A stretch of 64,000 nucleotides of DNA from Aquamicrobium sp. Lineage in GTDB: Bacteria > Pseudomonadota > Alphaproteobacteria > Rhizobiales > Rhizobiaceae. The DNA lies in assembly GCA_019739225.1 (NCBI GenBank), contig JAHHDT010000001.1, positions 434,001-498,000 of the forward strand, in the 5' to 3' direction. The translations under genes and the position numbers were made by a program. This document shows, one piece after another, positions 2,051-59,968 of the stretch. The first letter of the stretch is position 1; each line of letters opens with the position of its first letter. The notes beneath the pieces are model-generated. The model made no database searches, was not told where the DNA came from, and saw only the letters and a program-made list of their open reading frames with translations.

Positions 2051-2191
2051 ATGAACCTGGTCCGCAACTACCGCAACTGGCGCCGCTACCGTGAAACGGT
2101 CAACGAGCTGAGCCGCCTGTCCAACCGCGAACTCAACGACCTCGGCATTGCCCGCGGCGACATCCCGTTCGTCGCCCGCAAGTCGGTCTAA
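2051..2191 (+). CDS. DUF1127 small stress-type protein
   Basis: A 46-residue, Arg-rich protein. The C-terminal half carries the DUF1127 (YjiS-like) core seen as LSNRELNDLGIARGDI, normally a curved helix-turn-helix-like surface. The ATG at 2051 has an AGGTGA site seven bases upstream. In Rhodobacter sphaeroides the small DUF1127 protein CcaF1 is co-transcribed with the CcsR regulatory RNAs and acts as an RNA-binding protein under stress. Here the same kind of gene is followed within 25 bases by hairpins bearing the CcsR signature loop, so the pair is likely one transcript. The role in this organism is inferred. Confidence 0.9.
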   Translation: MNLVRNYRNWRRYRETVNELSRLSNRELNDLGIARGDIPFVARKSV

Positions 2192-2211
2192 AAAGAATTC
2201 AGGAATTTCGC

Positions 2212-2326
2212 CAGGGTCTACCTCCTCCCAGACCCTGACGGATACGGCCCGAGACTACCTCCTCCCAGTCGAGGGCCACCATAAAGACACCCGCCGGACC
2301 TCCTCCCCCGGCGGGTGTTTTTTTTT
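2212..2326 (+). ncRNA. Triple-hairpin CcsR/'cuckoo'-type small RNA region
   Basis: Three successive stem-loops each present the identical ten-base loop ACCTCCTCCC. Hairpin 1 has a perfect 8-bp stem (2212-2219 with 2230-2237; loop 2220-2229). Hairpin 2 has 5 + 4 bp flanking a GA/GA internal loop (2246-2256 with 2267-2277; loop 2257-2266). Hairpin 3 is the 11-bp terminator stem (2287-2297 with 2308-2318; loop 2298-2307). The stems differ in sequence while the loops are identical, which points to selection on the loop. Stress-induced CcsR RNAs of Rhodobacter, of the 'cuckoo' family, carry CCUCCUCCC loops downstream of DUF1127 genes. The loop mimics the anti-Shine-Dalgarno end of 16S rRNA. Confidence 0.82.
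2287..2326 (+). terminator. Rho-independent terminator of the DUF1127/small RNA unit
   Basis: A perfect 11-bp stem closes a 10-base loop and runs straight into a tract of nine T. It doubles as the third CCUCCUCCC hairpin of the small RNA. Confidence 0.92.
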
Positions 2327-2388: not shown

Positions 2389-3813
2389 ATGACAATCGAA
2401 CCCGTTCACGTCGTCGGCGGCGGCCTCGCCGGCTCCGAAGCTTCCTGGCAGATCGCGCGGGCGGGCGTGCCCGTCATCCTGCACGAGATGCGCCCGGTGC
2501 GCGGCACCGATGCGCACAAGACGCAGGGGCTGGCCGAGCTTGTCTGCTCCAACTCCTTCCGCTCCGACGACGCCGAGACCAACGCGGTCGGCGTGTTGCA
2601 CGCTGAGATGCGGCTTGCGAACTCGCTCATCATGGCTTCCGGCGACGCCAACCAGGTGCCGGCCGGCGGCGCGCTCGCCGTCGATCGCGACGGCTTCTCG
2701 GACGCCGTGACGGCGAAACTCGAAGCCCATCCGCTGATCACGATCGTGCGGGAAGAAGTTTCGGGCCTGCCGCCCGTCGAATGGGGCAAGACCATCATTG
2801 CGACCGGGCCCTTGACCGCCCCGTCTCTCGCCGAAGGCATTGCGGCGGAAACCGGCGCCGATGCCCTCGCCTTCTTCGACGCGATCGCGCCCATCGTGCA
2901 TTTCGACACGATCGACATGGATGTCGCCTGGTTCCAGTCGCGCTACGACAAGGTCGGCCCCGGCGGCACCGGCAAGGACTACATCAACTGCCCGATGGAC
3001 AAGGCGCAGTACGACGCGTTCATCGCCGCCCTGCTGGAAGGCGGCAAGACCGAATTCAAGGAATGGGAAGGCACGCCCTATTTCGACGGCTGCCTGCCGA
3101 TCGAGGTGATGGCCGAGCGCGGTCCCGAAACCCTGCGCCACGGCCCGATGAAGCCGATGGGCCTCACCAACGCCCACAATCCGTCAGTCAAGGCTTACGC
3201 AGTCGTCCAGCTCCGGCAGGACAATGCCCTCGGCACGCTCTACAACATGGTCGGCTTCCAGACGAAGCTGAAGCACGGCGAGCAGGTGCGCATCTTCCGC
3301 ACCATTCCGGGGCTGGAAAACGCGGAGTTCGCGCGTCTCGGCGGGCTGCACCGCAACACCTACATCAACTCCCCCACCCTGCTGGACGGTACGCTGCAGC
3401 TGAAGTCGCGCCCCGGCCTGCGTTTCGCGGGACAGATCACGGGCTGCGAAGGCTACGTGGAAAGCGCTGCCATCGGCTTGCTGGCCGGCCGCTTCGCCGC
3501 AGCCGAGCGTCTGGGGCAGCAACCGACCCTTCCGCCGGTCACCACCGCCTTCGGCGCGCTGCTCGGCCACATCACCGGCGGACACATCAGTTCCGACGAC
3601 GAACCCGGCAAGCGCTCGTTCCAGCCGATGAACGTCAATTTCGGCCTCTTTCCTCCGCTTGAGCCCGGTACCAAGCTCAGGCCTGACGACTTTGAGGGCC
3701 GGTTCCGCGGCAAGGACAAGTCGATCGCTAAGAAGAAGGCCCTTTCGGCTCGCGCACTTGCGGATTGCCGCGCGTGGCTGGGCGCTTCGCCAAGAGCCGA
3801 AGCAGCCGAATAA
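2389..3813 (+). CDS. trmFO: Methylenetetrahydrofolate-tRNA-(uracil-5-)-methyltransferase TrmFO
   Basis: Cytosolic FAD- and folate-dependent enzyme that makes m5U54 in the T-loop of tRNA. The 474-residue length is normal. The N-terminal dinucleotide fold is seen as [15 protein letters not shown]. The family motif with the first catalytic Cys is [10 protein letters not shown] (Cys53), and the second catalytic region is [15 protein letters not shown] (Cys235). The FAD-binding C-terminal part has [19 protein letters not shown]. The gene stands alone behind the small RNA terminator; the ATG at 2389 has only a weak ribosome site. TrmFO replaces TrmA in most alphaproteobacteria. Confidence 0.96.
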
Positions 3814-37989: not shown

Positions 37990-39825
37990 CTATTCAGGCA
38001 GGATGCGCACGGCGCCCTTGTCGGCGCTGGCGGCAAACGCGGCATACGCTTTCAGCGCCGTCGTCACGTTCCGTTTGCGGGGCCCGGCGGGCTTCCAGCC
38101 GAGCCTGTCCTGCTCCGCACGGCGGGCGGTCAGTTCTTCCTCCGAAAGGCGCAGGCTGATCGTGCGATTGGGGATGTCGATATCGATGATGTCGCCGTTG
38201 CGAACCAGGCCGATCGCCCCGCCCTGCGCCGCTTCCGGCGAGGCATGGCCAATCGAGAGGCCCGACGTGCCGCCGGAGAAGCGTCCGTCCGTCAGAAGCG
38301 CGCAGGTTTTCCCGAGCCCCTTCGATTTCAGGTAGCTGGTCGGGTAGAGCATTTCCTGCATGCCCGGCCCGCCTTTCGGCCCCTCATAACGGATGACGAC
38401 GACGTCGCCCGCCTTGACCTCGTTGCTGAGAATCCCCTTCACGGCCGCATCCTGACTTTCATAGACGACCGCCGGACCGGAGAATTTCAGGATCGACTCG
38501 TCCACGCCCGCGGTCTTCACCACACAGCCGTCCAGCGCGATGTTGCCCTTGAGCACGGCAAGACCGCCATCCTTGGAGAACGGATGTTCGACGGAGCGGA
38601 TGACGCCCTTTTCGCCGTCGGTGTCGAGTTCGTCCCAGCGGGCCTCCTGGCTGAAGGCCGTTTGGGTCGGGATGCCGCCCGGCGCAGCCCGGAAGAACGT
38701 CTTCACGGTTTCGCTGGTGGTGCGGGTGATGTCCCAGCGGTCGATGGCATCGCCCAGCGTCGCTTCGTGAACCGTGGGGCTGTCGCGATGGATCAGACCG
38801 CCGCGCTCCAGCTCGCCCAGAATGCGCATGATGCCGCCGGCCCGATGCACGTCTTCCATGTGAACGTCGTTCTTCGCAGGCGCGACCTTGGACAGGCACG
38901 GCACGTTGCGCGACAGGCGGTCGATGTCTTCCATCGTAAAGTCGATGCCACCCTCATAGGCCGCGGCCAGGATGTGCAGAACCGTGTTGGTGGAGCCGCC
39001 CATCGCGATGTCCAGCGACATGGCATTCTCGAACGCGCGCTTGTTGGCGACATTGCGCGGCAGCACGCTCTCGTCATCCTGTTCGTAATAGCGCTGGGCC
39101 AGATCGACGATCAGATGGCCGGCCTCGACGAACAGCCTGCGACGGTCGGCATGGGTGGCGAGCGTGGAGCCGTTGCCCGGCAGCGACAGCCCCAGTGCCT
39201 CGGTCAGGCAGTTCATGGAATTCGCCGTGAACATGCCCGAGCAGGAACCGCAGGTCGGACAGGCCGAGCGCTCGATGACCTTGACGTCCTCCTCGCTGAC
39301 GCTGTCGTCAGCAGCCGCGACCATGGCATCCACCAGATCGAGCGCATGCGTCTTGCCGTTGAGAACGACCTTGCCGGCCTCCATCGGCCCGCCGGAAACG
39401 AAGACCGCGGGAATATTGAGGCGCATCGCGGCATTAAGCATGCCGGGCGTGATCTTGTCGCAATTGGAGATGCAGACCATGGCATCGGCGCAATGTGCGT
39501 TGACCATGTATTCGACGCTGTCGGCGATGATCTCGCGCGACGGCAGCGAATAGAGCATGCCGTCATGCCCCATGGCGATGCCGTCATCGACGGCAATGGT
39601 GTTGAATTCCTTGGCCACGCCGCCGGCCGCTTCAATCTCGCGTGCGACGAGCTGGCCGAGGTCCTTCAGGTGCACGTGGCCCGGCACGAACTGCGTGAAC
39701 GAGTTGACCACCGCGATGATCGGCTTGCCGAAGTCGCCATCCTTCATGCCGGTGGCGCGCCACAGGCCGCGCGCGCCGGCCATGTTGCGGCCGTGGGTGG
39801 TGGTGCGTGAACGATAGGCGGGCAT
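37990..39825 (-). CDS. ilvD: Dihydroxy-acid dehydratase
   Basis: A 611-residue Fe-S enzyme for the third step of valine, isoleucine and pantothenate synthesis. The family signatures are [19 protein letters not shown] and [19 protein letters not shown], whose cysteines hold the cluster, and [20 protein letters not shown] near the end. It is monocistronic, with its own terminator. Confidence 0.97.
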
Positions 39826-39961
39826 GGCGTTTCCAGTTCAACGTTTCTTTGTTGGCCTATACTACCGGCAAACGGACACGATGTCAGCGACCGTACCGGC
39901 GGGTACTCCCCTCCGATACGGCCCTGACATCATGCCGTCAATAGGCTTCGCCCCGCGCCGG

Positions 39962-40951
39962 TCAGGCTCGGTCGGTTTCGCCGGCGTGTGCGCGACGCTC
40001 CATGTCGGCAACCTGCTCGGGCGTTTTCTCCTCGCCGTCGGGCTCTTCCTTGATGAAGATCGACAGCAGCACCGAGCCGAGAATGAGCATGCCCACCACG
40101 CCGAGCGCGATCTCGGACGGCAGCTTGTACCAGTGCGCGACGATCATCTTGGCGCCGACGAAGATCAGCACCAGCGAAAGGCCATGCTTGAGGAAGCGGA
40201 ACTCCCGCATCATGCCCGACAACACGAAGAACAACGCCCTGAGACCCATGATCGCGAACACGTTGGACGAGAACACGATGAACGGATCGTTGGAAATCGC
40301 CAGCACTGCCGGGATCGAGTCGATCGCGAAGACGAGGTCGGTGATCTCGACCGTCACCAGCACCAGGAACAGCGGCGTCATGAACAGGACGCCGTTGCGC
40401 CGGGTCAGGAACTTCGACCCCTCGTAGTCCTCGGTCACGCGCCCGGTGCTGCGCAGCCATTTGACGACCCGGCTGTTGCCGGGATCGGCCATGTCTCCGT
40501 CCGAGGTCATCATCTTGTAGCCGGAGATGAGCAGCACGACGCCGAGGATCATGCCAACCCAGAAGAACTGGTCGACCAGCTTCACACCCGGCACGATCAG
40601 CGACAATCGCATGACGATGGCGCCCACGATGCCGTAGAAGAGAACGCGGTATTGCGCTTCCTGCGGAACCTTGAAGTAGGCAAAGATCAGGGCGATCACG
40701 AAGATGTTGTCCAGCGAAAGCGCCTGCTCGACGAGATAACCCGTCAGGAATTCGGAACCGCGCTGCGGCCCCTCGAAGTAGAAGATGCTGGCCGCGAACA
40801 GCATCGCCAGCGAGACATACCCGCCGACGGTCAACAAGGCTTCGCGGGTGGAGATGACGTGGTCCTTGCGGTGCAGGACGAACAGGTCGAAGAAAAGGAT
40901 CAAGGCGACGAACGCCAGGAATCCAGGCCAGAGCCACTCATGGTCAAACAT
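39962..40951 (-). CDS. TerC family integral membrane protein
   Basis: A 329-residue membrane protein with about nine helices and the family motifs EQALSLDNIFVIALIFAYFK and VEITDLVFAIDSIPAVLAIS. Members such as Alx and TerC are tied to manganese export and to metalation of exported proteins. A Mn function is inferred here. The 254-base upstream region contains GC-rich stems, but I could not match a yybP-ykoY riboswitch. Confidence 0.92.
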   Translation of the reverse strand: MFDHEWLWPGFLAFVALILFFDLFVLHRKDHVISTREALLTVGGYVSLAMLFAASIFYFEGPQRGSEFLTGYLVEQALSLDNIFVIALIFAYFKVPQEAQYRVLFYGIVGAIVMRLSLIVPGVKLVDQFFWVGMILGVVLLISGYKMMTSDGDMADPGNSRVVKWLRSTGRVTEDYEGSKFLTRRNGVLFMTPLFLVLVTVEITDLVFAIDSIPAVLAISNDPFIVFSSNVFAIMGLRALFFVLSGMMREFRFLKHGLSLVLIFVGAKMIVAHWYKLPSEIALGVVGMLILGSVLLSIFIKEEPDGEEKTPEQVADMERRAHAGETDRA

Positions 40952-41139
40952 GTTTTTGGAGTTTCGGTAGCGCTGCGTGGGCGCGTCGTCGATCGGTCCG
41001 ACATCACAGGCGACGCCTCGCCTGCCAGAGGGGCCCGGCCCGGGTGACTGCGCGTAAAAATGGGGCCAACACGCCGAAAATTCAAGGCCTTTCAGCGATC
41101 GGCGCCCGAAAAGCTGTTTGCGGCCCTTTCAGCGCACGC

Positions 41140-59835: not shown

Positions 59836-59880
59836 GCATGTCTCCCGAAAGTGGGAACCGGTTTCGGGAGCAAGACATGC
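59836..59880. repeat. Short palindromic intergenic repeat, copy 2
   Basis: The same unit as 4468-4508, sharing the first 35 bases and differing by an inserted CAAG in the right arm. It starts two bases after the ald stop. Confidence 0.9.
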
Positions 59881-59929
59881 CTTGAAGCCAACCGAGGTTT
59901 CCGCGCAAATCCTCCCGCGCGGAGACGAT

Positions 59930-59963
59930 GGCCCGCCGGTCTGCACCACCGGCGGGCCTTTTT
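59930..59963 (+). terminator. Terminator of ald
   Basis: A 10-bp GC stem, GGCCCGCCGG paired with CCGGCGGGCC, followed by TTTTT. It ends just before the convergent DUF1203 gene. Confidence 0.9.
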
Positions 59964-59968
59964 CTTGG

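Follow-up and report, generated by a model that had tools for sequence, protein, structure and literature searches.

The window, a stretch of 64,000 nucleotides from Aquamicrobium sp., contains near its beginning a small gene (2051-2191, + strand) that codes for an arginine-rich DUF1127 protein of 46 amino acids (PF06568, 64 bits compared to a cut-off of 23.3, E = 1e-17). Its stop codon is followed on the same strand by an unpaired A/T-rich linker (2192-2206) and by three hairpins (2207-2242, 2246-2277 and 2283-2322), the last of which is an intrinsic terminator with a T tract that extends to position 2326. The downstream neighbour trmFO (2389-3813, + strand; GIDA family, PF01134, E = 4.4e-98) starts 62 bases behind the end of the T tract and lies outside the unit. 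Elsewhere in the window, a terC RNA (RF03067) was identified on the - strand (40989-41046, 64.4 bits, cut-off 39.9), opposite the end of a + strand open reading frame (39824-41047).

Inspection of the sequence located the motif CCTCCTCCC on the + strand at 2221, 2258 and 2299. Together with the preceding A, it constitutes the ten-base loop ACCTCCTCCC (2220-2229, 2257-2266 and 2298-2307). The fold calculated for 2192-2326 consists of exactly three hairpins; all three motifs are unpaired, and hairpins 1, 2 and 3 each present the loop ACCUCCUCCC. The energy of this fold is -58.9 kcal/mol, compared to a mean of -37.0 kcal/mol for shuffled sequences (z = -6.7; reached by none of 200 shuffles). The stem of hairpin 3 enters a stretch of nine T residues (2318-2326). 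This hairpin was not listed in a terminator scan of the + strand, the loop limit of the scan being eight bases. The first-pass annotation had described the same ten-base loop on three unlike stems, the last one being the terminator, and this description is exact with respect to both sequence and fold. Within the 64-kb window, CCTCCTCCC occurs five times, whereas 0.66 copies are expected and none of 100 shuffles reached five. The remaining two copies (13854 and 57240) are isolated single ones. With the end of the 16S rRNA, the loop presumably shares ACCUCCU only, which we take to be followed by UUU in the rRNA and by CCC in the loop. The sequence pattern of the 16S 3' end gave no match in this genome or in a set of 12 genomes that included it.

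For the assignment to an RNA family, covariance models were compared with the element. The CcsR1 model (RF02791), which represents the relationship proposed in the first-pass annotation, yielded 32.7 bits and thus missed its cut-off of 65.3 bits. The ar14 small RNA (RF02344), in contrast, was matched at 2202-2323 (+ strand) over the whole model (1-123) with 101.1 bits, well above the cut-off of 58.8 (E = 1.8e-17). The models of 6C, Rhizobiales-2 and anti-hemB each scored below their own cut-off. The broader proposal of a kinship to the CcsR or 'cuckoo' group is judged to be right. The ar14 consensus itself comprises three CCUCCUCCC loops and a terminator, and exactly this arrangement is found at 2202-2323: three hairpins with unpaired CCUCCUCCC and variable stems, the terminal one acting as terminator. 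It has been reported since 2011 for the Rhizobiales family RFMSmelA075 (SmelA075), whose RNAs are described as three hairpins, each with CCUCCUCCC, on variable stems, and as stress-induced and processed (PMC3927594). The same three-hairpin CCUCCUCCC layout is given for NfeR1 (PMC10746234), whose three loops are reported to be redundant in mRNA silencing (PMC10746234, PMC7143759). The idea that three compact loops ending in a terminator represent a distinct layout had therefore to be given up: judged by its sequence, the element is an ordinary ar14-family RNA with an already known layout. The genome contains two further ar14 copies above the cut-off, neither of which lies behind a DUF1127 gene. 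A weak ar14 match in the window (59853-59964, 25.8 bits) was judged to be due to chance, and a match at locus L005 (27.8 bits) turned out to be ar15 instead (50 bits with the ar15 model, cut-off 40 bits).

The association of the RNA with DUF1127 had also been noted at first pass and is correct; the stop codon ends at 2191, and the RNA begins at 2202. An ar14 copy linked in this way, with the stop codon directly before the RNA, was found in all eight searched genomes of the genus. In a search of 60 genomes, whose strict filters lead to an undercount of weak copies, ar14 exceeded the cut-off in 36 genomes, namely in 35 of the 36 that belong to the own family and in one of the 24 outside it. The 100 matches over the cut-off comprise 29 that begin no more than 80 nt past the stop codon of a DUF1127 gene (linked), 52 that stand alone and 19 that are located behind another unit with anti-Shine-Dalgarno (aSD) loops (tandem); the three sets overlap in their lineages and do not represent independent samples.

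Some of the named relatives have the same neighbourhood with trmFO. Of 591 named trmFO loci, the best 80 were considered; 37 of these possess triple units upstream, which add up to 55 units. In this set, DUF1127 directly followed by a triple unit occurs in Mesorhizobium, Pseudaminobacter, Phyllobacterium, Brucella-named genomes, Chelativorans and others. The Mesorhizobium loci contain two DUF1127 genes and two or three triple units; at many Sinorhizobium and Rhizobium loci, the triple units are instead located upstream of one or two DUF1127 genes. Tandems of two to three complete ar14-like units behind DUF1127 were observed in Pseudaminobacter and Mesorhizobium (L053:1299-1744, L051:1934-2419, L043:2040-2345). 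In Methylobacterium, Bosea, Bradyrhizobium and related genomes, DUF1127 ends 120-210 nt before trmFO (L098, L105, L107, L111, L113, L115, L119, L122), and no exact CCTCCTCCC is present in the 500 nt before trmFO at these eight loci. The DUF1127-trmFO neighbourhood may therefore be older than the place of the RNA in it.

A DUF1127 gene combined with a CcsR-like aSD sRNA is already known from the 'CIN1' loci (PMC10253847), and the window likewise contains a short DUF1127 gene directly 5' of an aSD-loop RNA on the same strand. As in the ccaF1-CcsR1-4 operon of Rhodobacter sphaeroides and at 'CIN1', the DUF1127 gene, the aSD-loop sRNA and the terminator follow each other as one unit. CcsR is reported to be processed from the 3' UTR of ccaF1 (PMC8625941); RNA binding by DUF1127 proteins is described as disputed (PMC12501420). 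The differences are that the Rhodobacter operon contains four CcsR copies and has a reported RpoHI/RpoHII promoter (PMC10253847), that the Rhodobacter RNA RSs0680a is given with two stem loops (PMC3927594), and that the element of the window does not reach the CcsR1 model.

Conservation and covariation were analyzed in an alignment of 29 hand-picked units, which contained 14 of the 28 listed linked elements (the own genome being represented by the window) and, from the 55 named triple units, a further 15. Directly behind DUF1127 lie 25 of the 29 units; the other four, which all come from the named set, are second or third units of tandems. The alignment omits the linked units of G031, G026, G020, G033 (three), G023 (two) and G022, as well as those of G035, G019, G011, G034, one of G025, and G050; rows with odd stems were dropped by the hand selection, which favours structure. 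The structure evaluated was the window's own fold. None of the nine motif columns of loops 1 and 2 varies in any of the 29 units. The mean column conservation is 0.996 for the loops, 0.989 for loop 3, 0.66 for stems 1 and 2, and 0.92 for the terminator stem. Double-sided changes occur in 26 of the 36 stem pairs (11 of 12 in hairpin 1, 9 of 9 in hairpin 2 and 6 of 15 in hairpin 3), and 90.9% of the cells are able to pair. The covariation score of 0.395 exceeds the shuffle mean of 0.179 and was reached by none of 500 shuffles; six slid controls scored at most 0.118. Less clear is the number of further pair types, one of the five measures, for which 24 of 500 shuffles reached the observed value. 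Invariant loops on covarying stems agree, for these 29 hand-picked units, with the selection on the loops that had been postulated at first pass, and the related question of whether the loops are conserved in related genomes can be answered positively for loops 1 and 2. Among the 100 ar14 matches from the 60 genomes, 60 contain three exact motifs, 33 two, five one and two none. Since 40 matches possess fewer than three, the exact word varies across the wider family. The units of one relative, G033 (L128, L031), contain lengthened or altered loop words (CTCCTCCTCCT, TTTCCTCCC) and offer a natural series on what portion of the loop is required.

Upstream of DUF1127, two putative regulatory boxes were found on the + strand. 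The near-palindromic LsrB-type box TGCA-N6-GCAT (TGCACAAAACGCAT, 1935-1948) is the sole exact match in the 64-kb window. It overlaps with an exact VtlR-type box GCAT-N3-TG-N3-T (GCATTGGTGCTAT, 1945-1957), a pattern that occurs three times in forward and four times in reverse orientation in the window. Both boxes precede a putative alphaproteobacterial sigma70-like promoter (1970-1998, + strand), which was read from the sequence as CTTCAA (1970-1975), a weak -35 element, followed by N17 and CTATCT (1993-1998). A scan for E. coli-type consensus promoters gave no hit in 1880-2400. Transcription would be expected to start near 2005, and relative to this position the LsrB box extends from about -70 to -57. 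The invariant form CTAT(C/A)T and a footprint over both boxes are common to 11 hand-chosen, aligned orthologous promoters.

This plan is similar to that of NfeR1 from Sinorhizobium meliloti, the founder of ar14, which shares the three CCUCCUCCC-loop hairpins with variable stems and a terminal terminator. NfeR1 is reported to be activated by LsrB at TGCA-N6-GCAT, located at -72 to -57 from the start, and to have a sigma70 promoter of the form CTTAGAC-N17-CTATAT (PMC10746234); the LsrB-type box is thus situated at a similar distance from a sigma70-like promoter. In contrast, NfeR1 forms an independent gene whose promoter is located at the 5' end of the RNA, whereas in the window the promoter plan precedes DUF1127 and the RNA resides in the 3' UTR; in the 60 bases before the RNA 5' end at 2202, inspection by eye revealed neither a sigma70-type -10 element nor an LsrB box. 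The second box, GCAT-N3-TG-N3-T, was proposed for VtlR (PMC7486931), a homologue of LsrB that is reported to regulate three DUF1127 genes in Brucella positively (PMC12595884). The VtlR-activated DUF1127 genes of Brucella and atu1667 of Agrobacterium resemble the locus in that a small gene is located behind a VtlR box. They differ in that no 3' UTR sRNA is mentioned in the pertinent sections of these publications (PMC7486931, PMC12595884).

The boxes recur at other linked loci. Within 200 nt before DUF1127, an exact LsrB box is present at 14 of the 29 linked loci (shuffle mean 0.28, maximum 2), an exact VtlR box at nine (shuffle mean 0.47, maximum 3), and either exact box in any orientation at 19 (shuffle mean 2.17, maximum 6). 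Accordingly, 15 of the 29 loci are without an exact LsrB box and ten are without both exact boxes in any orientation. Of 19 named linked loci, seven of which belong to Mesorhizobium, 14 contain the LsrB box and 16 the VtlR box. Two Brucella-named linked loci (L055, L059) combine DUF1127 with aSD triplets and contain neither exact box; words like the published CAATGCAGCCATGCA (PMC12595884) are found there.

In the 5.35-Mb genome, the composite LsrB/VtlR box occurs at four sites, compared to one site for the pattern read backwards. Three of the four adjoin ar14 or DUF1127 genes; the fourth has neither nearby. The first site is that of the unit in the window. A second one precedes a stand-alone ar14 by 29 nt and is located on the opposite strand. 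Another one lies upstream of a 57-aa DUF1127-like gene, again on the opposite strand (L176:1501-1759, C1 near 335940); this gene scores 24.1 bits with a Pfam cut-off of 23.3 and is absent among the five matches obtained when the whole genome was searched for DUF1127. In 151 genomes of the family, 493 composite sites were counted versus 44 for the backward pattern. DUF1127 or at least two aSD loops follow downstream at 11 of 33 inspected composite-box loci. For the 29 loci from other genomes, which represent the first-listed site per genome, eight have DUF1127 or aSD loops downstream and 21 do not. The composite box is enriched at DUF1127/aSD genes, yet, as indicated by the 11 out of 33 loci, it is not confined to them.

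The genome further possesses a separate ar15 copy with a VtlR box at -62, which adjoins a LysR gene located between trxB and ar15/AbcR. AbcR1/2 of S. meliloti are reported to adjoin lsrB (PMC8844928), and on the basis of its place and its Pfam LysR domain the gene is taken as lsrB-like. The ar15/AbcR sRNAs (RF02345) are comparable to the element of the window with respect to aSD loops, an LsrB/VtlR-type box and transporter targets, but have a different architecture. For trxB, a score of 400.9 bits was obtained at both C1:1124686 and C7:463449, near the ends of two contigs; likewise, two ABC ATPase ORFs of equal length and start were found (C2:28764, C5:29968). These twin copies are probably duplicated contig ends in the assembly.

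Putative targets were searched in the same genome. The pattern GGGAGGAGG-N4-10-ATG occurs at 16 sites and, read backwards, at two. For AAAGGAGGA-N4-10-ATG, a rough control that differs in base composition, three sites were found in either direction, and the ratio of 16 to 2 is therefore no feature of every SD-like word. Ten of the 16 sites precede ORFs of at least 190 aa, and six precede short ORFs only. Nine of the ten ORFs were scanned; the tenth shares length and start with one of these. They correspond to three ABC ATPases (one being the repeat), an ABC permease, two TRAP transporters with DctQ, EutH, a short-chain dehydrogenase, a nucleotidyl transferase and an MmeI-like methylase. As a raw share, transport genes constitute seven of ten predicted targets, or six of nine without the repeat. 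As a prediction, this list agrees with what has been reported for NfeR1 and AbcR. In the 22 bases before the linked DUF1127 starts (2029-2050 in the window), AGGTG is present in 11 of 29 cases. GAGG or AGGAG occurs in none of these 29 segments, which looks as though the DUF1127 message escaped recognition by its own RNA. This argument is weak and not compelling, because only six of the 37 coding-like ORFs of the window have GAGG or AGGAG before their first start.

Building on family, structure, loop conservation, synteny and the conserved box, we infer a single transcript, its processing and its action on mRNAs. We assign a probability of roughly 70% to the reading that the region from about 2005 to 2326 is an LsrB/VtlR-activated DUF1127 mRNA and that its 3' UTR gives rise, upon release, to an ar14 sRNA which masks ribosome-binding sites of the GGAGG type. 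An LsrB/VtlR-type LysR regulator would bind at 1935-1957 and switch on the promoter at 1970-1998. The resulting transcription unit would give rise to two regulators, the 46-aa DUF1127 protein and the ar14 RNA of the 3' UTR. By analogy to CcsR, the unpaired linker behind the stop codon is a presumed RNase E site, and cleavage by this or a similar nuclease would free an RNA of about 120 nt that displays three equivalent CCUCCUCCC loops. These loops may pair, as is reported for NfeR1, with GGGAGGAGG-like ribosome-binding sites, many of them belonging to transport genes, and translation would be blocked. Hairpin 3 would additionally terminate the transcript ahead of trmFO. The Brucella-named loci that lack the exact boxes, together with the 21 of 29 composite-box loci that are unlinked, slightly lower our confidence in this mechanism and in the broader generalization given below.

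Alternatively, the RNA could be a stand-alone ar14 gene with its own promoter inside the DUF1127 gene, as in NfeR1, in which case DUF1127 would be a mere neighbour. The 52 stand-alone matches are in line with this explanation, and in 23 of them an exact LsrB or VtlR box occurs in the 150 nt before the RNA (shuffle mean 2.21, maximum 8), which demonstrates that the family does use own promoters. We nevertheless regard it as unlikely for the locus studied here: the 60 bases before the RNA consist of DUF1127 codons and linker, in which neither a CTATAT-type -10 element nor a box is recognizable by eye, and box and footprint precede DUF1127. The stand-alone matches also bear on the quite improbable case that the hairpins act merely in cis, by stabilising or ending the DUF1127 mRNA or by acting near its stop codon, and that no free sRNA is formed. 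A role in cis would fit the presence of a DUF1127-linked copy in all eight searched genomes of the genus and the terminator function of hairpin 3. However, the 52 matches have no DUF1127 within 80 nt upstream, lie behind no other unit and keep their loops regardless; moreover, a stabiliser or terminator should be able to work without nine-base loops that stay invariant while their stems change. The lack of GAGG or AGGAG before the linked DUF1127 starts leaves no good site for the loops on the message itself, a point that is weak in view of the background.

The remaining alternative concerns the regulator. A promoter for RpoHI/RpoHII is reported for the ccaF1-CcsR operon of Rhodobacter (PMC10253847), and a heat-shock sigma factor of the RpoH type might control the unit instead of LsrB/VtlR. 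Given the exact composite LsrB/VtlR box, the conserved footprint, the NfeR1-like spacing and the resemblance of CTATCT to the -10 element of the NfeR1 sigma70 form, this is very unlikely.

What the analysis adds is the promoter link of the LsrB/VtlR boxes to the DUF1127-ar14 unit, which we do not claim to be unpublished. The literature search, which did not extend to the founding cuckoo paper, retrieved no paper that joins DUF1127 with NfeR1, and among 14 inspected papers none joins DUF1127 with alphar14. The boxes were defined separately, for NfeR1 in Sinorhizobium and for the VtlR targets in Agrobacterium and Brucella, and meet here on one DUF1127-ar14 unit. The location of the putative promoter ahead of both DUF1127 and the RNA suggests joint activation of the two products by a single stress regulator. 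This link makes it possible to ask which of the two, the protein or the downstream sRNA, causes the deletion phenotypes of such DUF1127 genes, and whether maturation of the RNA is assisted by the DUF1127 protein of the same unit, as reported for CcaF1. A tentative generalization, to which we give somewhat less than even odds, is that many Rhizobiaceae, taken broadly, possess one LsrB/VtlR-controlled transcript for two regulators, the DUF1127 protein and the silencing RNA of the ar14 family. If it is true, a single ancestral regulon would include both the DUF1127 genes regulated by VtlR and NfeR1 as a target of LsrB; the stand-alone arrangement of NfeR1 would correspond to the same promoter minus the reading frame, or vice versa; and the RNA in the 3' UTR would account for some of the phenotypes that are ascribed to DUF1127 genes.
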